From Lentisphaerota bacterium (GTDB lineage: Bacteria > Verrucomicrobiota > Kiritimatiellia > UBA8416 > JABMPJ01), in contig JABMPJ010000126.1 of NCBI GenBank assembly GCA_013203785.1, forward strand, positions 1-41,864: 41,864 nt of DNA. The letters run 5' to 3'. Position 1 is the stretch's first letter, and every line of letters starts with the position of its first letter. The notes under the pieces are model-generated. The model saw only the letters and a list, made by a program, of their open reading frames with translations, was not told where the DNA came from and ran no database searches. Positions 7,244-41,745 of the stretch are shown piece by piece. The position numbers and the translations under genes are program-made.

Positions 7244-8341
7244 TTATTTCATGAGCATAAGGATTCGCAGCCCGGCGGCAAGGAAAACAATGTTGGAGAG
7301 CCATGCCCCCAGCCAGGGTGCCATCAGCTCGCGCTTGGCGGCAAAGGCCCCCAACTGGGTTAGAGAATAGAACACGAAGAAGAAGAGCAGGGCGCTCAGC
7401 ACCCCGTTAATCATGCTCTGGCGGGCCGTACGGGCGCCGGCCGGAATGCCGAAGAGAATGACGATAAAGCAGGCCCAGGGCATGGCGATGCGTAGGTGGA
7501 AGTCCACCCGCGCCTGAGCCATTGCTCGCTGGGAGATACCGGGGTGTTCGCGCTGATAACGATAGATCTCGCGTGCGGTCATGAACTGGCTGGGTTTGAC
7601 TTCGTTCTCGAAATCGCTCGGCATCTCATTCCACGCGTTCATCTCGATGCCGTGCTCGGAGCCGGGCAGGGGACGCAACGACCCGACCGGGTTGCCGTCT
7701 TCATTATAGTCCTGTACCTTGACATCAAAGAACCACCACTGTTGATCGAGCCATTCCCCCCGCCCGACATGCCAGTCGCGGATGAGCGTGCGGTCCGGGC
7801 GTTCTTCACTGATACGGGTGCGGAGCAGGATGTTGGGTTGCTTGAAGTCGGTTTCGCCGATCATCCACATCCGCTTGTTCAGAGCATTGTAGTAAGTCAG
7901 GTTTTGAAAGGGACGCGCATCCGGTTCCTTAAAGTGGTTCTCCTTAAAGGCCATAGCCCAGTAGGCACTGGAGGGGGCAATGGTTTCCTGAAGCAGGGCG
8001 GTGGCAGCGCTGAAGGCGATGCCGACCAGCAGAAAGGGGAGCATGAGGCGGTAGAGGCTGATGCCGCTGGCTCGCATCGCGGTGAGTTCGCCCTGTCGCG
8101 AGAGCTGCCAGAGGGTGTAGAGCGTCGCCAGCAACAGGGCTGCGGGGATCATGAACTGGAGATTGGGGGCCATGGACCCGAAGTAGTAGCGCACAGCCAG
8201 CGGGAGGGTGATGCGGGCTTTCATGAACTTCGAGAAGTTATAGAAGAGGTCGTAAACAACCTGGACCATAGTCAGGGCGGTCACACAGTAGAAGGTCGTG
8301 ACCAGGTATTCGCGCAACAGGTAGCGGTCCAACAGTTTCAT
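7244..8341 (-). CDS. LptF/LptG (YjgP/YjgQ) family permease
   Basis: An inner-membrane permease of the LPS export ABC complex (LptB2FG), about 365 residues. The N-terminus LLDRYLLREYL is typical. Two N-terminal membrane segments flank a stretch ending LWQLSRQGELTAMRASGIS, which in the family contacts the LptB ATPase. A long periplasmic beta-jellyroll region and four more hydrophobic segments follow, ending near LRILMLMK. The ATG at 8341 gives the family start; the frame stays open to 8527, and ATG 8353 is a second option, both without a clear ribosome site. Only one permease is present here, so its partner must be encoded elsewhere. It is divergent from rpsA. Confidence 0.87.
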   Translation of the reverse strand: MKLLDRYLLREYLVTTFYCVTALTMVQVVYDLFYNFSKFMKARITLPLAVRYYFGSMAPNLQFMIPAALLLATLYTLWQLSRQGELTAMRASGISLYRLMLPFLLVGIAFSAATALLQETIAPSSAYWAMAFKENHFKEPDARPFQNLTYYNALNKRMWMIGETDFKQPNILLRTRISEERPDRTLIRDWHVGRGEWLDQQWWFFDVKVQDYNEDGNPVGSLRPLPGSEHGIEMNAWNEMPSDFENEVKPSQFMTAREIYRYQREHPGISQRAMAQARVDFHLRIAMPWACFIVILFGIPAGARTARQSMINGVLSALLFFFVFYSLTQLGAFAAKRELMAPWLGAWLSNIVFLAAGLRILMLMK

Positions 8342-8532
8342 ATGGCGTGGCATGATAGGGGGAAGCGGTGCCGGCTGTCGATAGTCTTTAGCCCATTTAG
8401 CCCTTGCGGGGGGCGTGCCGACTGTTGTATCTTCCACGGTTTGAAATGGTTGCAGTCTCCTTGCCTCGGGGTAGGGATGTAGGCGGCAGCGTGTGTGTGT
8501 AACCAGGTAAACCAACAGCGTAATCAAATAAC

Positions 8533-10500
8533 ATGGAAACAGCGGAACAGACTCAGACCAAAGAACATGTGGACTTCGACGTGGCCGACTTCGGCGGCGG
8601 AGATCACGAGACCATGGCTCAACTCTATGAGCAGACCCTCAAGGACTTCAAAGAGGGCTCCATTGTTACGGGCAAAGTGCTCGAAATTCGGAACAACGAG
8701 GTCCTGATCGACATCGGCTATAAGTCGGAAGGTGTGGTTTCGGCCCACGAATTCAGGAACATGGAAGACGTCGCGGTAGGCGACGAGCTCAACGTGTTGC
8801 TGGCCCAGATTGAAGACGACAACGGCATGGTTGTCCTCAGCAAGCAGCAGGCTGATGAGAAGCTACAGTGGGAACGCGTGCTCTCCTCGTTTGGCGAGGG
8901 CAGTGTCATTGAAGGTGTGGTCAAGACTCGTGTACGCGGTGGATTGATCGTGGATGTCGATGGGATCGAGGCGTTTCTGCCGGGTTCGCAGATTGATGTC
9001 GTTCCGGTACACAATACCGATGCACTCCTCAATCAGCGTTTTGAATTTCGTATCCTTAAGATCAGTGAAGAGCGTCGCAACATTATCCTGTCGCGCCGCG
9101 AGCTGATCGAAGAACGCCTGCGTTCCAAGCGCAAGGAGTTGATGCAATCGCTTGAGGTCGGCCAGCGCGTGGTTGGTAAGGCCAAGAACATTACTGATTT
9201 TGGTGTCTTTGTAGACCTGACCGGCATGGACGGCCTGCTGCATATCACCGATATGAGCTGGGGCCGGATCCGTCATCCCTCCGAGATGGTCAACGTGGGC
9301 GACGAGATTGAGGTGGTGATCCTCGACATTGATCGCGACCGCGAGCGCGTCTCGCTGGGGCTCAAGCAGTCGCAGCCGAATCCGTGGGAGGATATCGGTG
9401 CGCGCTACCCGGTCGGCAGCCGTTTGCGCGGCAGCGTGGTCAACCTGGTGCCCTACGGTGCTTTCGTGGAGATCGAGAAGGGCGTCGAAGGCCTGGTACA
9501 CGTCTCAGAGATGTCCTGGACCAAGCGCATTGCCCGTGCCTCCGACCTTATTCAGGTGGGCGACGAGGTGGATGTTGTGGTGCTGAGTGTAAACAAGGAG
9601 GAGCAGAAGATCGCCTTGGGCATGCGTCAGACCGAGGACAACCCGTGGGATACCGTTCAGGCTCGCTACCCTGTTGGTTCACGCGTTCACGGCAAGATCC
9701 GCAACTTTACATCATACGGCGCCTTCGTGGAGCTCGAGGATGGCATCGACGGCATGATTCATGTCTCCGATATGTCCTGGACCCGTAAGGTCAACCATCC
9801 CTCCGAAGTGCTGGCCAAGGATGAAGAGGTCGACGCCTTGGTCCTGGAAGTGGATCCGTCCAACAACCGGATCAGCCTGGGTCTCAAGCAGGCCGCCGAG
9901 GATCCCTGGAGTTCCGTGGTCGGCAAGTACAGCGTGGGCGACCGGGTCTCGGGCAAGGTCACCAAGGTGGCTTCATTTGGTGCCTTCGTCGATATTGGCG
10001 AAGGGGTCGATGGCCTGGTGCATATCTCGCAGCTGAGCGAGAGCCATGTTGAGCGCGTCAAGGACGTGCTGGATGTAGGTGACCATGTTGAGGCGCGTAT
10101 TGTACGGATTGACCGTGCCGAGCGGCGTGTGGGTCTGAGCATCAAAGCCGGTGAGCTGCCTGATGAAGAGTTCGCTCTTCAGAAGGACGAGATCCTCGAA
10201 GGACTGCGTCCGGGTGAGGACATGGTGGCTCTGTCGGGTGCCTTTGACGAGGCCTTTGGGTTGGCCGCCAGCGAAGAGTGGACGCCGGGTGGTGCGGAGA
10301 AGAGCGCCGAGGTGGCGGATGAGGCCCCCAAAGCTGAGGCTGAGGCGACCACAGAGGCTGAGGCTCCTGCGGTGACTGAAGAGGCCGCGGCGGATGAGAC
10401 CCCCGTTGAGGCGGAGGAGGCTGAAGCCGAGGTGGCGGGTGAGGTGAGCGCTGAGGCGCCATCTGACGCCGAGGCAGAGGCCGAAACGCCTAAGGAATAG
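8533..10500 (+). CDS. rpsA: 30S ribosomal protein S1, with long acidic tail
   Basis: S1 binds mRNA leaders and docks them on the 30S subunit. Six S1 (OB-fold) domains are visible at roughly 40-104, 121-188, 207-277, 293-363, 380-451 and 466-538. Domains 3-6 carry the strong FGVFVDL/GAFVE and GLLH(I/V)S-type motifs, and the first two are divergent as usual. The protein has 655 residues against about 557 in E. coli. The excess is a tail from about 575 built of Ala, Glu, Thr and Pro. No ribosome site precedes the ATG, which is normal for rpsA because S1 controls its own translation. A strong terminator follows at 10517. Confidence 0.96.
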   Translation: METAEQTQTKEHVDFDVADFGGGDHETMAQLYEQTLKDFKEGSIVTGKVLEIRNNEVLIDIGYKSEGVVSAHEFRNMEDVAVGDELNVLLAQIEDDNGMVVLSKQQADEKLQWERVLSSFGEGSVIEGVVKTRVRGGLIVDVDGIEAFLPGSQIDVVPVHNTDALLNQRFEFRILKISEERRNIILSRRELIEERLRSKRKELMQSLEVGQRVVGKAKNITDFGVFVDLTGMDGLLHITDMSWGRIRHPSEMVNVGDEIEVVILDIDRDRERVSLGLKQSQPNPWEDIGARYPVGSRLRGSVVNLVPYGAFVEIEKGVEGLVHVSEMSWTKRIARASDLIQVGDEVDVVVLSVNKEEQKIALGMRQTEDNPWDTVQARYPVGSRVHGKIRNFTSYGAFVELEDGIDGMIHVSDMSWTRKVNHPSEVLAKDEEVDALVLEVDPSNNRISLGLKQAAEDPWSSVVGKYSVGDRVSGKVTKVASFGAFVDIGEGVDGLVHISQLSESHVERVKDVLDVGDHVEARIVRIDRAERRVGLSIKAGELPDEEFALQKDEILEGLRPGEDMVALSGAFDEAFGLAASEEWTPGGAEKSAEVADEAPKAEAEATTEAEAPAVTEEAAADETPVEAEEAEAEVAGEVSAEAPSDAEAEAETPKE

Positions 10501-32384: not shown

Positions 32385-35300
32385 ATGAAGCGCTTGGCGT
32401 TAACAAATTTCAGTCTGCGATTCCCGTGGGTCATTCTGCTGGTGGTCGTGGCGATGGTGGTGGGCTTCGGGTCTCAATTTCCCAAGGTGAAATTCGATAA
32501 CGATCCTGAAAACATGCTCTCGCCCTCCGAGCCGGTCCGGGTGTTCCACGATAGGATCAAAGAGCATTTCAATCTGTATGACTTTGTCATCGTCGGGATC
32601 GTGAATGATGCCAATCCGTACGGCGTTTTCAATGTTGAGACGCTCACACGTATCGATCAGTTGACGCACCAATTGCTCAGCCTCCGTCCAGGCGTAGATG
32701 GAATGCCGGAGGTGATCGCGAGTACTGGAAGTGGTAATTATACCTCTCTCGACCTCCATCCCTCCGGTCGATTCGCCCGCGCACTTAACGTGGTCTTCCG
32801 CCACGACCCCACCCATCTCTTCAACGAGGAGGGCGGTAGCGCCATCATCGGACGTGAGCTGATCGGTCCGAGCGTGGTCGATAACATCAAGCAGGCGGAA
32901 TTCGGATCGCTCAAACTCGAGTACCTGATGGAACATCCGCCCACGACGCAGGCCGAAGCGCTCGTGATCCGCGACGATGCGATGGCCAATCCGCTCTACA
33001 AGGGAACCCTGGTGGCGGAGGATGGCAAGGCCATCTGTCTCTACATTCCCATCGAGAAGAAGACCTACAGCTACAATGTTGCCAACCTGGTGCGTGAGCT
33101 GACGAAAGGCTGGGGCGATGAGAACAAGGTTTATATCACGGGCCTACCCGTCGCCGAGGATACATTCGGTGTGGAAATGCTCAAGCAGATGGCGACGTCT
33201 GCTCCCTTGGCCGGCGTGGCGATCTTCCTCTTGCTCCTGCTCTTCTTCCGCCGCGTCTCCCTGATTATTGCCCCGATGCTGGTGGCTGTGGTGAGCGTGG
33301 TATGTACGATGGGGCTCCTGATCGGACTCGGCTTCAAAGTGCACATCATGAGCTCCATGATCGCGATCTTCTTGATGCCTATCGCGGTGGCCGATGCGGT
33401 GCATATTCTGAGTGAGTTCTTTGACGCCTACCGGCAATTCAATGACAAGAGGGAGACCCTACGACACGTGGTGGGCCATCTCTTTATGCCGATGCTCTAT
33501 ACCAGCCTGACCACAATCGCCGGCTTTGCGTCCCTGGCCACAACCCCCATACCGCCCGTGCGCGTCTTCGGCCTGCATGTCGCCTTTGGCGTGGCGTTGG
33601 CCTGGCTGCTGACCATGACGTTTGTGCCTGCGTTTATCTGTCTCTTTATCTCCAATAAGTCGCTTCACAAGCTGTGTGCCCTGACCGGTCACGAGGAGCA
33701 GTGTGAGATCCGCAACGGGCTGCTCGATCGCTTCCTGCGCGCCCTGGGCGGCGTGACATATCGGCGGGCGCGCCTGATCATTGGTGTGGCGGTGGCGGTC
33801 ATGGTGATCTCGATCGTCGGCGTGGCACGCATCCAGGTGAACGACAACCCTGTCAAGTGGTTTACGAAGAGTCATCCGGTGCGCGAGGCTGATCGTGTTC
33901 TGAACAATCATTTCGGCGGCACCTATACGGCCTATCTCACCTTGCATGCCGATCCCAACAGCACCATGACCGGCCGCGATATGGCTGAGGCTATTCGCGC
34001 CCGTGCCCGTGTCCGTTTCAGTGCAGACGAGTCGCCGGCACTGGGTCGTTTTCTGCACGAAGTCGACGCACTCGAACAGAAGCTGAGCGATATGGATACC
34101 TGTTCACCCGCAAGCTGCTTTGCCCAACTGGCCGAGGCGGCCAAGCGTATTGACGGCAAAGCGATGTCTGGTTGGGAGGTGCTGGCCGACGAGATCAACT
34201 ATCTCGATCCGGAGGGCCTGACACACGCCGCGCTGGTGGCGACTGTGACGGGGCTCGACGCGCTGGACACTGTCGGGCGGGAGCGCTACCTCACAGATCT
34301 TCAGGCGTACAGCGCGCTGACCGGCACGGTCCTGATGGAGGAGGCCCTGGCCCTCTGCGACGGCTACATGGAGCACTCCTTCGAGTCCTTTGTCACAGTC
34401 ATGACCACAGAAATGACGGCCCCGGCGTTCAAGCGGCCGATCCTGCTTAACTACGTTGAGGCGCTTCAACATCACTTGGATGGTATTGCCGTGGTGGGCA
34501 AGACCTCATCCGCTGTAGATGCCCTGAAGAAGGCCGCCTATGAGTTGCAGTATGTCGCGCTACCGGTGGAGCTGACGCCCGAGGAGTACGCCATCCTACA
34601 GGCCCGCAACGCCGCCTTCTTCGCCGTTCCCGACGAGGCCGCAGCGGTCGGCCAAGTCTATATCCAGCTCGAAGGCATGAAAAAGCGTGACTCCTTGTTC
34701 CATCTCGTAACGAAGGATTACCAGGAGGCGAACATCTGGGTGCAGTTGACCAGCGGAGATAACCGCGACATGCAGGCCGTGGTGGATGAGACCGCACGCT
34801 ACATGGCCGCCCATCCGCCTCCGCTCAAACTGGAAGTCGGCTGGGCTGGCCTGACCTACCTTAACGTGGTCTGGCAGGAGAAGATGGTGCGCGGCATGTT
34901 CTCTTCGCTGGTGAGCAGCTTTGTGGTGGTGCTCGCAATGATGATGGTCCTCTTCCGCTCGCCGCTGTTCGGTCTGCTGGCGATGGCGCCGCTATCGCTG
35001 ACCATCCTCTTTATATACGGGTTGATCGGCTGGGTGGGCAAGGACTACGACATGCCCGTGGCGGTGCTCTCCTCCCTGACGCTGGGTCTCAGCGTGGACT
35101 TCGCGATCCATTTCCTCCAGCGCGCACGTGAGGAGCACAAGCGTCACGGTTCGTGGCAGAAGGCCTGCGTCCCGATGTTCTCTGAGCCGGCTATGGCGAT
35201 CAGTCGCAATGCCATCACGATTTCCGTCGGCTTTACACCGCTGCTGCTTGCACCGCTGCTGCCGTACCGGACCGTGGGCTTCTTTCTGGCCACCATCATG

Positions 35301-35417
35301 GCGGTGTCCTGGATGGCCACCCTATTGGTGCTGCCGGCTCTGTTGACGCTGTTGCGGCGATTTGTTTTTGGAACGGGCGAGAACGACACGCCTATAGATG
35401 AGGGAGGTGCCCAATGA
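32385..35417 (+). CDS. RND/MMPL-family exporter
   Basis: A 1010-residue inner-membrane transporter of the RND superfamily (COG1033/MMPL type). It is built as two repeats: one N-terminal helix (about 12-29), a large periplasmic loop, then a five-helix block (about 270-430); the second half repeats this with a helix near 465-480 and a block from about 840 to 1000. PIAVADAVHILSEFFDAY and LSVDFAIHFLQR carry the two TM4 aspartates expected for proton coupling. A GAGGT site precedes the ATG. It overlaps the LolA-like gene by four bases. HpnN-like hopanoid exporters and MmpL lipid exporters are related, so a lipid substrate is plausible. Confidence 0.9.
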   Translation: MKRLALTNFSLRFPWVILLVVVAMVVGFGSQFPKVKFDNDPENMLSPSEPVRVFHDRIKEHFNLYDFVIVGIVNDANPYGVFNVETLTRIDQLTHQLLSLRPGVDGMPEVIASTGSGNYTSLDLHPSGRFARALNVVFRHDPTHLFNEEGGSAIIGRELIGPSVVDNIKQAEFGSLKLEYLMEHPPTTQAEALVIRDDAMANPLYKGTLVAEDGKAICLYIPIEKKTYSYNVANLVRELTKGWGDENKVYITGLPVAEDTFGVEMLKQMATSAPLAGVAIFLLLLLFFRRVSLIIAPMLVAVVSVVCTMGLLIGLGFKVHIMSSMIAIFLMPIAVADAVHILSEFFDAYRQFNDKRETLRHVVGHLFMPMLYTSLTTIAGFASLATTPIPPVRVFGLHVAFGVALAWLLTMTFVPAFICLFISNKSLHKLCALTGHEEQCEIRNGLLDRFLRALGGVTYRRARLIIGVAVAVMVISIVGVARIQVNDNPVKWFTKSHPVREADRVLNNHFGGTYTAYLTLHADPNSTMTGRDMAEAIRARARVRFSADESPALGRFLHEVDALEQKLSDMDTCSPASCFAQLAEAAKRIDGKAMSGWEVLADEINYLDPEGLTHAALVATVTGLDALDTVGRERYLTDLQAYSALTGTVLMEEALALCDGYMEHSFESFVTVMTTEMTAPAFKRPILLNYVEALQHHLDGIAVVGKTSSAVDALKKAAYELQYVALPVELTPEEYAILQARNAAFFAVPDEAAAVGQVYIQLEGMKKRDSLFHLVTKDYQEANIWVQLTSGDNRDMQAVVDETARYMAAHPPPLKLEVGWAGLTYLNVVWQEKMVRGMFSSLVSSFVVVLAMMMVLFRSPLFGLLAMAPLSLTILFIYGLIGWVGKDYDMPVAVLSSLTLGLSVDFAIHFLQRAREEHKRHGSWQKACVPMFSEPAMAISRNAITISVGFTPLLLAPLLPYRTVGFFLATIMAVSWMATLLVLPALLTLLRRFVFGTGENDTPIDEGGAQ

Positions 35418-36202
35418 TGATGAAACCAATGGCCCTGTTGCTGGCCAGCGGGCTACTGCTGGGTGCGGGTGTGAAGGCACCTGCGGCCGACGAGACGGAT
35501 GCCAACACGATCGTGGAGAGGGCCAACAAGGCTTCCTACTATGCTGGCAAGGACGGTCGAGCCCAGGTGAAGATGACCCTCTCAGACGGTCGCACGCGCG
35601 AATTTGTGATTCTGCGCGCCAACGCTGACGAGGGCATGGAGCAGAAATTCTACGTCTACTTTATGGCACCAGCCGACGTCCGCAAGATGGCCTATCTGGT
35701 GCACAAACGTCCTGGTGGTTTGGACGACCGCTGGCTCTTTCTCCCGGCCCTGAACCTGGTCAAACGGATCGCTCCCGGGGACAAGCGCACGAGCTTTGTG
35801 GGGTCCGACTTCCTGTATGAGGACGTCTCTGGGCGTGGCTTGGAGGAAGACACGCACGAGCTGATCGAGAGCAGCGCCACGCAGTATGTCCTAAAGAACA
35901 CGCCCAAGGATTCCGGCAGCGTAAAATTCTTGTCTTACACCGTTTGGATAGACAAGGAGACCTTCTTGCCCCGCAAGGCGGAGTATCTCGACAAGAACGG
36001 CACGCTCTACCGGCGCGTCGTGGCCACCAAGGTGGAGACAATCGAGGGGCACCCGACCGTGCTGGAGACCTATGCTGAAGACCTGGTCTCGGGTAGCAAG
36101 ACCGTCAACAGCTTCAGCGAGGTCTCGTATGACCTGGGCTTGAAAGATGGGCTTTTCACGGAACGCTTTCTGCGTCGCCCGCCGCGTGAGGTGACACGGT
36201 GA
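35414..36202 (+). CDS. LolA-like outer-membrane lipoprotein-sorting protein (PF17131 type)
   Basis: A 262-residue periplasmic protein with a signal peptide (MKPMALLLASGLLLGAG, cut near residue 24). The signature segments are YVYFMAPADVRKMAYLV, DDRWLFLPAL and SFVGSDFLYEDVSGR, which mark the LolA-like family that accompanies RND/MMPL exporters. LolA folds hold hydrophobic molecules in a half barrel, so it probably carries lipid from the exporter towards the outer membrane. A GGAGGTG site precedes the ATG. It overlaps both neighbours by four bases. Confidence 0.87.
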   Translation: MMMKPMALLLASGLLLGAGVKAPAADETDANTIVERANKASYYAGKDGRAQVKMTLSDGRTREFVILRANADEGMEQKFYVYFMAPADVRKMAYLVHKRPGGLDDRWLFLPALNLVKRIAPGDKRTSFVGSDFLYEDVSGRGLEEDTHELIESSATQYVLKNTPKDSGSVKFLSYTVWIDKETFLPRKAEYLDKNGTLYRRVVATKVETIEGHPTVLETYAEDLVSGSKTVNSFSEVSYDLGLKDGLFTERFLRRPPREVTR

Positions 36203-37518
36203 GAAGAGGTGTGTGGGTCGTTGGGTGGGTGTGTGTTGGCGTGCTGCTGGTTGGCCCACCTGCGGCGCAGGGCGGACCGGCCTGGATGTCATCGTTGAGC
36301 GATGCCGGGGTCGAAATGAACGGCGTTGCCGATTATCGCTATGGCCGACGCACAGCGGAGACGGAGGTCGAGGATGACACGTCGCTGAACGAGCTGCGTC
36401 TACAGACCGATCTGCTCTGGTATCATGATCGCTTCACGGCACAGCTGAAAGGCGACCTGGTCTATGACGCCGTGGCGGCCGAGTGGGATGATGTTGACCT
36501 GGAGACAGGGAAGGGGATGCTCGACCTGCGGCAGGCTAATCTGCTGATCTCGCCGCTGAGCTGGATGGACCTTAAGCTGGGACGCCAGGTGTTGACCTGG
36601 GGCGCCGGCGATCTGGTCTTCATCAACGACCTCTTTCCCAAGGACTGGCAATCCTTCTTTCTGGGGCGGCATATTGAGTATCTCAAGGCTCCTTCTGACG
36701 CCCTTTTCGTTAGTCTCTTTCCTTCGCTAGTCAACATCGACATCGCCTACACGCCACGTTTCGATAGTGATCGCCATGTGACAGGTGAACGCCTCGCCTT
36801 CTGGAACGGTCAGGCGATCGTCGGGCAGGATGGAGTGCTCGTGACCGATCGCCCCGCCCGGTGGTTTGAGGATGACGAGCTGGCGGCGCGCCTCTACCGT
36901 AATGTGGGAGGCTACGAGCTGGCGCTCTACGGCTATCACGGCTACTGGAAGAGTCCCGGCGGTATGGATCCGACCACGGGACACTGGCTCTTTCCTGCCT
37001 TGGCGGTCTACGGCGCCAGTGTCCGAGGACCGCTCATCGGCGGCATTGCCAGCGTTGAGGCGGGCTATTACGACTCCGTGGATGATCGTGATGGCGACGA
37101 TCCTTTTGTCAACAACAGTGAGGCGCGCCTGTTGCTGGGGTATGAGCGTGAGGTGGCTCAGGATCTGACCATGGGGATGCAGTACTACGTTGAGCGCATG
37201 CTCGACCACGATGCATACACCGACGCCCTGATCGCCATCGGGCAGCCCACTGCGACCGCCCGCGACGAGGATCGCCACACGGTGACACTGCGCGTGACCT
37301 ATTTGCTCATGAATCAGAACCTGATTATGAGCTGCTTTACGCGCTACTCACCCTCCGACGCGGATGCGTATATCAGGCCGGTTGCCACCTACCGCATTTC
37401 GGATCAGTGGCAGGCCTCGGTTGGCGGCAACATCTTTTTTGGGGATGACGATCACACGTTCCTGGCCCAATTCGAGCCAAACAACAACCTGTATGCATCG
37501 CTACGGTGCAGTTTCTAA
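36199..37518 (+). CDS. outer-membrane beta-barrel protein (DUF1302-like)
   Basis: A 439-residue exported protein. The signal peptide spans about 1-25 (VVGWVCVGVLLVGPPAAQGG). The remainder has alternating aromatic/polar beta strands, ending in an NNLYASLRCSF strand with a terminal Phe, as in outer-membrane proteins. LKLGRQVLTWGAGD near residues 125-138 is typical of DUF1302-like barrels. It starts with GTG overlapping the previous stop. With the exporter and LolA-like protein it forms a plausible trans-envelope route. Strand count and exact family are not certain. Confidence 0.75.
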   Translation: MRRGVWVVGWVCVGVLLVGPPAAQGGPAWMSSLSDAGVEMNGVADYRYGRRTAETEVEDDTSLNELRLQTDLLWYHDRFTAQLKGDLVYDAVAAEWDDVDLETGKGMLDLRQANLLISPLSWMDLKLGRQVLTWGAGDLVFINDLFPKDWQSFFLGRHIEYLKAPSDALFVSLFPSLVNIDIAYTPRFDSDRHVTGERLAFWNGQAIVGQDGVLVTDRPARWFEDDELAARLYRNVGGYELALYGYHGYWKSPGGMDPTTGHWLFPALAVYGASVRGPLIGGIASVEAGYYDSVDDRDGDDPFVNNSEARLLLGYEREVAQDLTMGMQYYVERMLDHDAYTDALIAIGQPTATARDEDRHTVTLRVTYLLMNQNLIMSCFTRYSPSDADAYIRPVATYRISDQWQASVGGNIFFGDDDHTFLAQFEPNNNLYASLRCSF

Positions 37519-38187: not shown

Positions 38188-39492
38188 ATGCCGACGTGTC
38201 CATCAAATGCCGTTTGCCGTCATCCCGCCCATGTGCTGATTAAGCCCGCTGGACCCGACTGCAATCTGCGCTGTAAATACTGTTTTTATCTCGAAAAGCA
38301 CGCGCTTTTTGTTGAGGAGAAGAGCTGCCGGATGACCGACGACGTGCTTGAGCACTACATCCGTAGCTACATCGCCTCCCAGCCGACCCAGGAGATCGAG
38401 TTTGCCTGGCAGGGCGGTGAACCCACCTTGATGGGCCTGCCGTTCTATCGGCGTGCGGTTGCCTTGCAGAAACACTATGGCGCTGGCCGTACCATAAACA
38501 ACAGCCTGCAGACCAACGGAACCCTCTTGACCGATGAGTGGTGCGCCTTCCTGGCCGAGGAGAAGTTCCTGGTGGGGCTCAGTATCGATGGCCCGGAAGA
38601 GATCCATAACCGCTACCGCGTCTTCAAGGATGGCCGTGGTGCCTTCGCCCAGGTTGATCGTGCGGCCAAACTGATGCGCAAACATGGTGTCGAGTACAAC
38701 GCCCTGACCTGCGTCACCCGCGAGAGCGCTTATGAGGGAAAGCAGATCTACCGCTTCCTGCGAGACTACGGCTTTGAGTTTATGCAGTTCATCCCGATCG
38801 TCGAGCGCGAGCCCGATGAGCGCTCGCGCGAGTTGGGGTTGGCACTGGCCAGCCCACCACCCACTGACGCGCCGTCCGAGCCGTCACCTATGATGCCTTT
38901 TGCAGTTGAAGCCCTCCAATATGGCCAGTTTCTTGTCGATATCTTCGAAGAATGGGTCCGTCGCGATGTGGGCAAGGTCTTCGTAAACCACTTCGACTGC
39001 GCTCTGGGCGCATGGTATGGCGGGAACCCCTCGCTCTGTATCTACGCCAAGGTGTGCGGTTCATCACTGGCGATTGAGCACGACGGCTCCATCTACGCCT
39101 GTGATCATTTCGTCTATCCTGAGTTCAATCGTGGCAACATTATGCGCGAGGATATGGCCGGGCTCCTTAGCAGCAACAGGCAGCAAGCCTTCGGAATGAG
39201 TAAATGGCTGGATCTCCCCAGTTGTTGCCGCCACTGCGACTACCTGCATGCCTGCCATGGCGGCTGTTTGAAACATCGCAGTGCGACCTCCCCCGAGGGG
39301 GAACCGGGTCTCAACTATCTCTGTCCCGGCTACAAGCTCTTCTTCAAACATGTTGATCCCTACATGAAGCAGATGGTCGAACTGCTGCGCGAGGGCCGCC
39401 CCGCCGCCGACATTGTGAACTTCCTGCCCCGTCGAGAGTTGCACTCCAAGGCTCAGGCCAAGCGAAAGCGAAAGAAGGGGAGGCGGAAATAG
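38188..39492 (+). CDS. anaerobic sulfatase-maturating enzyme-like radical SAM/SPASM protein
   Basis: A 434-residue radical SAM enzyme. The CxxxCxxC cluster is CNLRCKYC (Cys25, Cys29, Cys32). The C-terminal SPASM region has many cysteines (FDCALG, VCGSSL, YACDHF, SCCRHCDYLHACHGGCLKH, LCPGYK) for two auxiliary Fe-S clusters. This layout fits anSME, which converts a Cys or Ser in a sulfatase active site to formylglycine. Peptide-modifying SPASM enzymes are related. No sulfatase gene is in the window, so its client lies elsewhere. GGAAGG lies before the ATG. The C-terminus is a lysine/arginine-rich tail. Confidence 0.87.
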   Translation: MPTCPSNAVCRHPAHVLIKPAGPDCNLRCKYCFYLEKHALFVEEKSCRMTDDVLEHYIRSYIASQPTQEIEFAWQGGEPTLMGLPFYRRAVALQKHYGAGRTINNSLQTNGTLLTDEWCAFLAEEKFLVGLSIDGPEEIHNRYRVFKDGRGAFAQVDRAAKLMRKHGVEYNALTCVTRESAYEGKQIYRFLRDYGFEFMQFIPIVEREPDERSRELGLALASPPPTDAPSEPSPMMPFAVEALQYGQFLVDIFEEWVRRDVGKVFVNHFDCALGAWYGGNPSLCIYAKVCGSSLAIEHDGSIYACDHFVYPEFNRGNIMREDMAGLLSSNRQQAFGMSKWLDLPSCCRHCDYLHACHGGCLKHRSATSPEGEPGLNYLCPGYKLFFKHVDPYMKQMVELLREGRPAADIVNFLPRRELHSKAQAKRKRKKGRRK

Positions 39493-39618: not shown

Positions 39619-40368
39619 ATGAAGTGCAGCGTGATATGGAGAGTGGTGCCCGTGGCAGCGATGCTGCTTTCTGGGTGCGGCCAGAGCATTCGTGCCCTGG
39701 ATGCACGTGATCGCAGTGAGCCACTGATGCAGCGCGCCCAGGTCGCGCTGTCGACCGGGGACGTGGATGGAGCGGCGGCGCTGTATGCCGAAGCGCTCGA
39801 CGACAATCCTCGTGCGGCGCGCGGACACCTCGACCTCGCCTTCCTGCTCCACGATTCGCTGAAGGACTACGTCGCTGCCATCTATCACTACCGTCAGTAC
39901 CTGCGCCTGCGGCCGGAGACGGAAAAATCGGAGATGATCCAGAACAGGATTCGGTTGGCCCAGCAGGCATTCGCCGCGCGCGTATTGCCGGAGGACCGCG
40001 AGGGGGGGCGCACGATCCAGCGCCTCGAGCGCGAGGTCGGAGCGCTGACCCGGCGGGTGGGAGAGTTACAGACCGAGAACCAGGCCCTGACGGAACAGGC
40101 TGCCGAGCTAAGGATGGCGCAGGGGAGGGGCCGCGAGGTGTCGGCTCCGCGTGGCCCGGTGGGTGGTGGTGGGGCTACCCCGACTGAGACCGAGCAGTTT
40201 TACATTGTGAAGCCTGGAGACACCCTCTCCAGCATCGCGATGAGGGTCTATGGCGATGCCGGGCGGTGGCGCGACATCATCGCGGCGAACAAGGCCGTGT
40301 TGGGCAATGGAGATCTGGTCAAGGTCGGACAACGACTGAAGATTGTGAAGGAGAACGAAGATGGCTGA
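39619..40368 (+). CDS. TPR/coiled-coil/LysM lipoprotein
   Basis: A 249-residue envelope lipoprotein. The lipobox LSGC puts the lipidated Cys at residue 20. A TPR-like helical pair (about 35-115) is followed by a coiled coil (about 130-166), a Gly/Pro linker and a C-terminal LysM domain (about 193-242, FYIVKPGDTLSSIAMRVYG). LysM would bind peptidoglycan, so the protein bridges a membrane and the wall. The frame stays open upstream to 39499, but the signal peptide starts at 39619. It overlaps the next gene by eight bases. Confidence 0.85.
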   Translation: MKCSVIWRVVPVAAMLLSGCGQSIRALDARDRSEPLMQRAQVALSTGDVDGAAALYAEALDDNPRAARGHLDLAFLLHDSLKDYVAAIYHYRQYLRLRPETEKSEMIQNRIRLAQQAFAARVLPEDREGGRTIQRLEREVGALTRRVGELQTENQALTEQAAELRMAQGRGREVSAPRGPVGGGGATPTETEQFYIVKPGDTLSSIAMRVYGDAGRWRDIIAANKAVLGNGDLVKVGQRLKIVKENEDG

Positions 40369-41059
40369 AGATTTTTTTGATGAGGACCTTGTGGACGTCG
40401 ATACACCGCAAACCGCGGCAGGTGGTTCGGCACCCACCGTTACGCCACTCACGGGTGCCGGGCAGCTGCGCATGCATCGTCAGAAGGAGGAGATCACCAC
40501 GCAAGTGGCCGACGCGGTGAAGGAGATCGAAGGGCTGCGCATGAGGCAGGAGCAGCTCGAGAAGGAGCGTAGCGACCTGCAGGATTTGGCGCGGCGCCAG
40601 GATAGCTACGGTGAGGCCAAGATTGAGGTGATTGATCAGCTCACGCGCAGCATTGTACACTTGGAGAAAGACGAGGCGCAGGCGCATCGCTATACCGAGC
40701 TGCTCTCCGTCATGCGCGATCGTTTCAAGGATACGCTCGAAGAACTGCGTGGCATCAACGAGGCCGGCTGGTCCAAAGATGCCTTTCAGACCGAGCTGAA
40801 CAAGGCGGTCGTGCTGGTCGAGGAGGCCCGGTCCATCTTCAGCAAGGGCATGGCGAAAATCGATGCTGAGAACTGGAACCAGGTCCATGAAGGGGGCGTG
40901 CAGCCCTCCTTCCTGGCGCGCGGCGAACTGCCGGGCGGCATGCCCAAGCGTTTCAGTTTCTGGCTGAAGGCAGGGTTTGCATTCAGTGTCCCTATAATTG
41001 TGGTGGCCATACTGGTCTTTGTGACGGCCATCGTCCTGCGGGTCAAGGGTTGGTATTGA
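40361..41059 (+). CDS. tail-anchored coiled-coil membrane protein
   Basis: A 232-residue protein of unknown function. An acidic N-terminus (FFDEDLVDVD) precedes a predicted long coiled coil (about 38-165, rich in Glu, Leu, Arg and Gln). A single C-terminal membrane helix follows (about 203-227, FAFSVPIIVVAILVFVTAIV), then a very short tail. There is no signal peptide, so most of the protein is probably cytoplasmic. It overlaps the LysM lipoprotein gene by eight bases and is followed by another tail-anchored gene, which suggests one complex. I do not recognise a family. Confidence 0.78.
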   Translation: MAEDFFDEDLVDVDTPQTAAGGSAPTVTPLTGAGQLRMHRQKEEITTQVADAVKEIEGLRMRQEQLEKERSDLQDLARRQDSYGEAKIEVIDQLTRSIVHLEKDEAQAHRYTELLSVMRDRFKDTLEELRGINEAGWSKDAFQTELNKAVVLVEEARSIFSKGMAKIDAENWNQVHEGGVQPSFLARGELPGGMPKRFSFWLKAGFAFSVPIIVVAILVFVTAIVLRVKGWY

Positions 41060-41119
41060 GCATGGCGGCCTCTCTAGGCTGGGCGCTCCGGGTGATCCGG
41101 AGTAGATGGTGAGTTATCT

Positions 41120-41596
41120 ATGGCGCGCACTCTGACAGGTAAACGGGCTCTGAACAAACGCCTCAAGGATGTCCAGCGCGAGCTGGCCACCGTCGCGAGC
41201 GACATACGCTCGCTCGAACAGGGCAAACCGGTCCCGCGCAAGAGGGCGGCACCTGAGCGCCCACGCCCCATCCCCGCGCCCAAGCTCTCTCCGCCGTCAT
41301 CGGGCATTCGCATCGCCGAAGATGAGCATGACGATCATGTCGAGAGCCTACTCGCATCCCAGAAAAATCTACCCCGGCCTGCGCCGGACAAAGGTCGTAT
41401 GGAACGCGAGGAGCGCATCGTCAAAGAGCGGGCCGAGAAGGTCCGCGATGAGCGATTCTCCGACTACCTTGCCTCCAGCTTTGAGGCCGGTGGTCCCCTG
41501 CGCTACGAGCGCCGCATTCAGCGCAACAAAGCGGTCGTCCTTGGTGTCATCGTTCTCGTCGTCCTAGCCTGGCTCATCATGCAGTTCGGGCACTGA
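41120..41596 (+). CDS. small tail-anchored protein with basic/proline-rich linker
   Basis: A 158-residue protein of unknown function. An N-terminal basic helix (about 5-32) is followed by a Pro/Arg-rich stretch, a charged helix (about 95-115), and FSDYLASSFE. It ends in a single membrane helix (about 138-155, AVVLGVIVLVVLAWLIM). The layout, helical cytoplasmic part plus C-terminal anchor, repeats that of the gene before it. The gap is 60 bases. It is the last protein gene before tRNA-Ser. Confidence 0.75.
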   Translation: MARTLTGKRALNKRLKDVQRELATVASDIRSLEQGKPVPRKRAAPERPRPIPAPKLSPPSSGIRIAEDEHDDHVESLLASQKNLPRPAPDKGRMEREERIVKERAEKVRDERFSDYLASSFEAGGPLRYERRIQRNKAVVLGVIVLVVLAWLIMQFGH

Positions 41597-41657: not shown

Positions 41658-41745
41658 GGAGGGATGGCTGAGTGGACGAAAGCATCGGTCTTGAAAACCG
41701 ACGACCCGCAAGGGTCCGTGGGTTCGAATCCCACTCCCTCCGCCA
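41658..41745 (+). tRNA. tRNA-Ser (anticodon UGA)
   Basis: An 88-base tRNA with encoded CCA. Acceptor arms GGAGGGA (41658-41664) and TCCCTCC (41735-41741) pair fully, followed by G and CCA. The anticodon stem CGGT/ACCG encloses loop CTTGAAA with anticodon TGA at 41692-41694. A long variable arm (GACCCGCAAGGGTC) is typical of serine tRNAs. The T-loop GGTTCGAATCC is standard. It decodes UCA and, with wobble, other UCN codons. Confidence 0.97.

Follow-up and report, generated by a model that had tools for sequence, protein, structure and literature searches.

Three consecutive genes, here called P1, P2 and P3, lie near the end of a 41,864-nucleotide contig from a Lentisphaerota bacterium (NCBI GenBank assembly GCA_013203785.1, contig JABMPJ010000126.1; class Kiritimatiellia of the phylum Verrucomicrobiota), the whole of which we refer to as the window. 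They encode a LysM lipoprotein followed by two tail-anchored coiled-coil proteins. We find that conservation applies to the P2-P3 pair and not to the trio, P1 having joined the pair, or stayed with it, mainly in the window's class. We tentatively propose that P2-P3 is an inner-membrane adaptor that would recruit a cytoplasmic partner in envelope growth or division, with P1 acting separately.

Divergence in division and wall growth can be put to the test in the Planctomycetes-Verrucomicrobia-Chlamydiae (PVC) bacteria. According to a 2025 transposon study of Verrucomicrobium spinosum, no function is known for 100 of the 618 essential proteins, and the division and cell wall (dcw) cluster is essential except for mraW (PMC12283558). 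The P2-P3 pair offers a concrete, testable candidate here, as a two-gene module with no family in the libraries searched, found side by side across much of the phylum and partly beside the dcw genes; it may be an unrecognised part of envelope building or division in the Verrucomicrobiota.

The three genes in the window

All three open reading frames (ORFs) are on the forward strand and are confirmed as real genes at the coordinates given here. P1 (39619-40368) encodes a lipoprotein of 249 amino acids with a signal peptide, a lipobox (Cys20), TPR-like repeats, a coiled coil and a C-terminal LysM domain. P2 (40361-41059) encodes a tail-anchored coiled-coil protein of 232 amino acids and P3 (41120-41596) a small basic tail-anchored protein of 158 amino acids, neither with a family match in the libraries searched. 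The P1 stop and P2 start overlap by exactly the eight bases originally predicted (40361-40368, forward strand), and the P2-P3 intergenic gap is 60 bases. Third codon positions hold most of the differences from two genomes of the same genus in each of the three genes (for P2 against genome G001, 0.16, 0.10 and 0.44 by codon position), which supports coding. The reading frame is open in 46 of 47 P2 homologous stretches, the other having an internal TGA, and in all 33 P3 homologous stretches among the matches listed.

Distribution of P1, P2 and P3

To describe gene order we used 104 unique P2 loci, identical P2 tails having been collapsed first. The 84 loci from the window's class comprise the window, 37 loci from genomes of the same genus, order or class, and 46 from a contig search, for which class membership is presumed and not confirmed locus by locus; the remaining 20 were hand-picked from 58 P2 matches in other classes of the phylum so as to span families. 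Conserved gene order, which the original prediction had named beforehand as open to refutation, is what these loci display. Of the 82 class loci that can be scored, for which 400 bases or more had to be available beyond P2, 79 have P3 as the next gene in the 3' direction, and P3 follows P2 in 43 of the 45 class loci with sequences outside the profile pool. Two class loci without a matched P3 (L136 and L137) have in that place a small unmatched ORF with a moderately hydrophobic end, while at L076 no such ORF was found. Outside the class, the gene after P2 encodes a small protein that is hydrophobic at its C-terminus in 19 of 19 scorable loci; the P3 profile that scores these loci includes most of their rows, which were first seen by reading ORFs. 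P2 and P3 are usually separated by a short gap or overlap. Since the order is so conserved, the arrangement exceeds chance.

The lipoprotein gene behaves differently. Of 78 class loci, 71 have P1 immediately before P2, compared with only one of the 20 loci from elsewhere in the phylum. In a sample of 240 phylum genomes, P2 is found in 115 with a broad profile and in 98 with a narrower one; by counts made by hand from the match lists, 81 of the 240 have both P1 and P2, 34 have P2 alone, 117 have P1 alone and eight have neither. P1 and P2 are thus present independently and are not obligate partners, and a three-gene unit is ruled out as a conserved entity by their independent distribution outside the class. 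The profile searches and the co-occurrence with LysM that had been proposed as checks bear out the pair while separating P1 from it, and the trio as a single system is not supported. In single-sequence searches of 57 related genomes, P2 was matched in 47 and P3 in 32.

A few loci depart from the usual arrangement. Three class loci have P1 without a detected P2: at L073, P1 runs directly into gatC-gatA, at L074 it is followed by P3, and at L075 neither P2 nor P3 was found beside it. In a strongly reduced genome of 0.9 Mb (G085), the P2 homologue is split into two ORFs (L157, 8661-9119), while the P3 homologue beside it (8305-8676) is still an open frame. Genome G090 has, besides an intact copy (C1, 196829-197371), a second P2-like stretch some 13 kb away (C1, 210737-211108) that contains two internal stops and is a decayed duplicate.

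Architecture of P2 and P3

The two proteins were compared in alignments A1 (36 rows), A5 (60 rows) and A6 (26 rows, phylum-wide) for P2, and A2 (36 rows), A7 (24 rows) and A8 (41 rows) for P3. Each has a single strongly hydrophobic segment, which is C-terminal, with no second segment above threshold in any row of A1 for P2 or of A2 and A7 for P3; these three alignments served for the count, A6 being left out together with A5, in which rows are cut at the ends of the matches.

In the AlphaFold2 model, P2 has helices at residues 33-130, 142-177 and 198-229 (mean predicted local distance difference test score, pLDDT, 83.6; predicted template modelling score, pTM, 0.46). From the N-terminus, its layout is a short peptide, a flexible stretch, the long first helix, a break at Trp137, the second helix, a linker and the C-terminal helix. 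The peptide, DFFDEDL in the window (residues 4-10; 40370-40390, forward strand), has the class consensus TDFFDDDL and is a candidate docking peptide. Its D7 is invariant and F5, D9 and L10 are at least 90% conserved in A1, in which rows were found without the motif; D4, F5, D7 and L10 are invariant in A5, partly by construction, as the motif was one of the two search patterns. The motif is not kept in the A6 rows from other classes of the phylum. Trp137 (40769-40771, forward strand) is invariant in A1 and A5 and at least 90% conserved in A6. The C-terminal transmembrane helix (residues 199-229; 40955-41047, forward strand), which both hydrophobicity and the model support, has a glycine (G205) and a proline (P211) that are invariant in all 26 rows of A6.

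The model of P3 has helices at residues 3-33, 111-120 and 127-157 with a disordered middle (mean pLDDT 71, pTM 0.27). Its short helix carries a juxtamembrane RFxxYL motif, RFSDYL in the window (residues 112-117; 41453-41470, forward strand), of which F113 and Y116 are at least 90% conserved in the 41 rows of A8; outside the class the motif was seen by eye as [K][LM]xxYL at two loci (L150 and L151). The last helix (41498-41590, forward strand) comprises a basic stretch and the transmembrane segment. Hydrophobic periodicity peaks at 3.48 residues in the first helix of both P2 and P3, as in coiled coils, and the shared topology that had been predicted for the two proteins, with a coiled coil on the N-terminal side and a single C-terminal anchor, is upheld.

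The two proteins differ sharply in charge. The N-terminal side of P2 has a median net charge of -9 in A1 and -10 in A6 and is negative in 97% and 88% of rows, respectively, whereas that of P3 has a median of +10 in A2 and A7 and +8 in A8 and is negative in 3%, 8% and 0%. The 15 residues before the transmembrane core of P3 have a mean net charge of +3.9 in A2 and +3.8 in A7, giving a strong positive-inside signal (+3.9 before the segment versus +0.3 after it). Around the P2 segment the mean charges in A1 are +0.78 before and +0.72 after, so that there is almost no such signal. The opposite charges, the fixed gene order and the matching topology together suggest that P2 and P3 form a heteromeric membrane complex.

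The adaptor that we propose would be such a complex in the inner membrane, with each protein held by its one C-terminal helix and with the acidic coiled coil of P2 and the shorter basic coiled coil of P3 on the cytoplasmic side. Acting as an adaptor or scaffold, it could use the helix of about 98 residues in P2 to draw a cytoplasmic partner to the membrane, helped in the window's class by the free N-terminal peptide TDFFDDDL. This recruitment would serve envelope growth or division, while P1, presumably co-expressed with the pair in this class, would act separately as a peptidoglycan-binding lipoprotein.

The original prediction had instead suggested that the coiled coils could be linked to the cell wall, and in its fullest form this would make P1, P2 and P3 one envelope-spanning tether, running from cytoplasmic coils to the peptidoglycan and outer membrane. 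P1 does adjoin P2 in most class loci, with the eight-base overlap in the window. TolB_N (PF04052), from a component of the Tol-Pal system, was matched in only eight of the 240 phylum genomes, with weak scores (best E 3.4e-7), and not in the window's own genome, TolQ, TolR, TolA and Pal not having been searched for; the rarity of TolB_N leaves room for other envelope tethers, and another could be needed. However, the residues that follow the transmembrane core have medians of six for P2 (A1) and of one and two for P3 (A2 and A7). With so few residues beyond the membrane, P2 and P3 could not reach P1 or the peptidoglycan without a further transmembrane partner, and proteins without a periplasmic domain are poorly suited as an envelope tether. 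The genomes with P1 alone or P2 alone, and the single locus outside the class at which P1 stands beside P2, point the same way. A direct link from P2 or P3 to the wall is unlikely, and we consider the three-protein tether quite improbable.

Genomic context of the pair

The association of the pair with division or wall growth, which the original prediction had put forward as one of several possibilities, is made plausible by the genes that follow it in part of the loci, although the process itself is read from this context. We found murG downstream of the pair in 29 of the 104 unique loci, with or without a gene for O6-methylguanine DNA methyltransferase (OGT) before it, and of these 29 loci, murC is present in 27, ddl in 18, ftsQ in 14 and ftsA in 13, these counts being bounded by the flank length of each locus. 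At L064, Pfam matches identify OGT, MurG, a Mur ligase, Ddl, FtsQ, FtsA and FtsZ consecutively. In many of the dcw loci neighbouring genes are only a few bases apart or overlap by four. The OGT gene cluster is found in 33 of the 104 loci, often between P3 and murG (for example, at L064 and L082), and between P3 and gatC at L083 and L088.

A more specific form of the adaptor proposal sees in P2-P3 a scaffold for division or elongation that has gone unrecognised in the Verrucomicrobiota, where TolB is seldom detected. This acidic and basic pair of tail-anchored coiled-coil proteins would bring a cytoplasmic machine to the membrane, in the window's class by way of the TDFFDDDL peptide, and work with the dcw products; this we regard as doubtful, if still worth entertaining. 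A role in the elongasome cannot be argued from co-occurrence with MreB, which is uninformative, as MreB is present in all 240 phylum genomes.

Several observations weigh against the adaptor proposal or the process that we assign to it. The comparison with MreB itself, present in 240 of 240 genomes where P2 is present in 115, indicates that P2 cannot be a required component of any universal machine. Among the sampled genomes of the class, a hand count gives P2 in only 40 of 81, and of the 115 matches in the phylum sample six were at E between 1e-6 and 1e-3. The flanking charges of P2 do not establish which way it lies in the membrane. Genes for gatCAB, or part of it, which have no envelope role, are downstream in 19 of the 104 loci instead of dcw genes, and 45 loci have neither dcw nor gatCAB genes downstream, with 11 too short to score. 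Finally, when the dcw label is placed on a tree of P2 it requires three changes, of which at least one is forced by well-supported branches; this tree was made by a quick method from 102 of the 104 rows, leaving out L149 and L157, with short-flank loci uncounted. As the tree forces one change only, the 29 dcw loci represent few independent events, perhaps as few as one gain, and dcw adjacency is weakened as repeated independent evidence.

The gatCAB genes are found downstream of the pair in 15 loci of the class and four outside it, and for this reason gatCAB may be the older context. They are within about 0.25 kb in 11 of the 19 loci (two of these with OGT between) and 1.8-3.5 kb away in the other eight. 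This translation operon brings in the nearest rival to the adaptor reading, namely that P2-P3 is a membrane tether for ribosomes or translation by analogy with YqjD, ElaB and YgaM, in which the basic N-terminal part of P3 would hold ribosomes or nucleic acid and P2 would regulate it. PMC10746276 describes YqjD and ElaB of Escherichia coli as ribosome-binding proteins that take ribosomes to the inner membrane, and places the N-terminal part of YqjD, ElaB and YgaM in the cytoplasm; all three resemble P2 and P3 in being small, with one C-terminal transmembrane segment and no periplasmic domain. The strongly basic N-terminal side of P3 would suit such a role, as would the presence of gatCAB downstream both in and outside the class. 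P2-P3 differs, however, in being a two-gene pair of opposite charge, the better-conserved partner, P2, is acidic, and dcw genes are downstream at other loci. Furthermore, no match to the YqjD/ElaB family was found for P3 in Pfam or NCBIfam, nor for 24 P3 relatives in Pfam at E<=0.01. We therefore consider a ribosome tether rather unlikely.

The mixed context (dcw genes in 29 loci, gatCAB in 19, other genes in 45 and too little sequence in 11) also allows that the neighbours are housekeeping bystanders and that P2 and P3 jointly serve some other membrane process, such as stress response, membrane organisation or secretion. Six family codes of the class (f25, f31, f37, f39, f40 and f41) gave no match to the P2 profile in the 240-genome sample, which would fit this explanation, and some of the P2 absences may be divergence beyond the reach of the profile. 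The tight packing of the pair with the dcw genes, with short gaps and four-base overlaps kept through considerable divergence, argues against mere bystanders, and we judge the explanation fairly improbable.

At four loci (L142, L144, L146 and L149) an ORF of 568-751 amino acids, forming one sequence cluster, is directly upstream of P2, and by eye its product, a large membrane protein, looks like an ABC-2-type permease. P2-P3 could be imagined to assist a membrane transporter, for instance this adjoining permease, but only four of the 104 unique loci, belonging to two family codes (f57 and f48), have the arrangement, and the idea seems to us very unlikely.

Relation to known families

The original prediction did not recognise P2 or P3, and they remain without a family in Pfam, NCBIfam, the PDB sequences and the PDB folds. 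Neither protein has a Pfam or NCBIfam assignment, only low-scoring matches of a coiled-coil kind; the NCBIfam scan covered P2, P3 and 26 P2 relatives (P3 relatives left out), and Pfam was also run on 24 P3 relatives. The best Pfam score of a single member among the P2 relatives was to a Nuf2_DHR10-like family (1.2e-05, in two of 26 members), and NCBIfam ASRP, SMC and Rad50 models scored down to 1.6e-05 in up to 14 of the 26. We read these weak scores as coiled-coil composition and reject them as evidence of a known family. P3 has no Pfam family at E<=1. The P2 profile found nothing better than E 0.0023 among PDB sequences, and a Foldseek search of PDB folds with the P2 model gave no matches at E<=0.001, the best being 0.56.

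Coiled-coil proteins of division come to mind for comparison. FtsB/DivIC, ZapB and GpsB-like scaffolds resemble P2 in their general architecture, a coiled coil that is membrane-linked or cytoplasmic, and division genes are near P2 and P3 in part of the loci. FtsB and DivIC have an N-terminal transmembrane segment and a periplasmic coil, whereas the arrangement is reversed in P2, with the transmembrane segment at the C-terminus. In Pfam, DivIC scored 13.1 bits on P2 against a cut-off of 28.9, and ZapB was also far under its cut-off.

A partial literature search found no publication naming P2 or P3, which does not imply their absence from print. The PVC signature proteins of PMC3444138 include the small CT421.2, of about 53 to more than 80 amino acids, and the P2-P3 pair is not described among them in the available text of that paper.

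The LysM lipoprotein

That P1 is a LysM lipoprotein, as predicted, is borne out by its lipobox and by a LysM score over the cut-off. The lipobox pattern is present after the signal peptide in P1 and fits 28 of the 31 rows of the P1 alignment (A3), with the cysteine itself (Cys20; 39676-39678, forward strand) invariant in all 31. The TPR region (residues 35-100; 39721-39918, forward strand) matches Pfam TPR_2 at E 1.7e-06, with 28.1 bits against a cut-off of 27, and TPR_16 at E 2.5e-07 with a score just under its cut-off. The LysM domain (PF01476; residues 195-242; 40201-40344, forward strand) matches at E 1e-08, with 35.4 bits against a cut-off of 20.9. All 31 members of A3 match LysM at E<=0.01, and most match TPR families.

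The P1 profile matches 198 of the 240 phylum genomes at E<=1e-10; among the matches listed, most cover almost the full profile and some are confined to the N-terminal half, and other TPR or LysM proteins may account for the weakest. A single-sequence search matched P1 in 54 of the 57 related genomes, matches to the TPR part only being included. A P1-type lipoprotein is matched in both of the genomes of about 0.9 Mb (G085 and G103) as well. Given this breadth, a P1-type lipoprotein may in its own right belong to the core envelope proteins of the Verrucomicrobiota. We think that P1 is probably a separate, widespread peptidoglycan-binding lipoprotein of the outer membrane.

P1 has features in common with CpoB and Pal, namely a lipid anchor, TPRs and a predicted wall-binding domain. 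Pal carries an OmpA-like domain, and P1 has LysM in its place. A further difference from the Tol-Pal system is that TolB_N is matched in few of the phylum genomes and not in that of the window. PMC12204202 describes CpoB as a likely TPR-containing lipoprotein of the outer membrane in most non-proteobacteria, and Pal as a lipid-anchored, peptidoglycan-binding tether. NCBIfam models for Tgl (5.4e-07), BamD (4.1e-06) and PilW (0.0011) give weak scores over the TPR part of P1, but these are far under the curated cut-offs, and the matches stop before the LysM domain.

Neighbouring genes

A tRNA-Ser(TGA) gene (41658-41745, forward strand) is the neighbour after the three genes and is outside the cluster. 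Directly upstream of P1 is a gene for a Radical SAM/SPASM protein (38188-39492), anaerobic sulfatase-maturase-like by eye. Further upstream, consecutive overlapping ORFs at 32385-37518 encode an MMPL-type transporter, a LolA-like protein and a third product that matches DUF1302 weakly, and judging by these sequences the stretch looks like an export operon.

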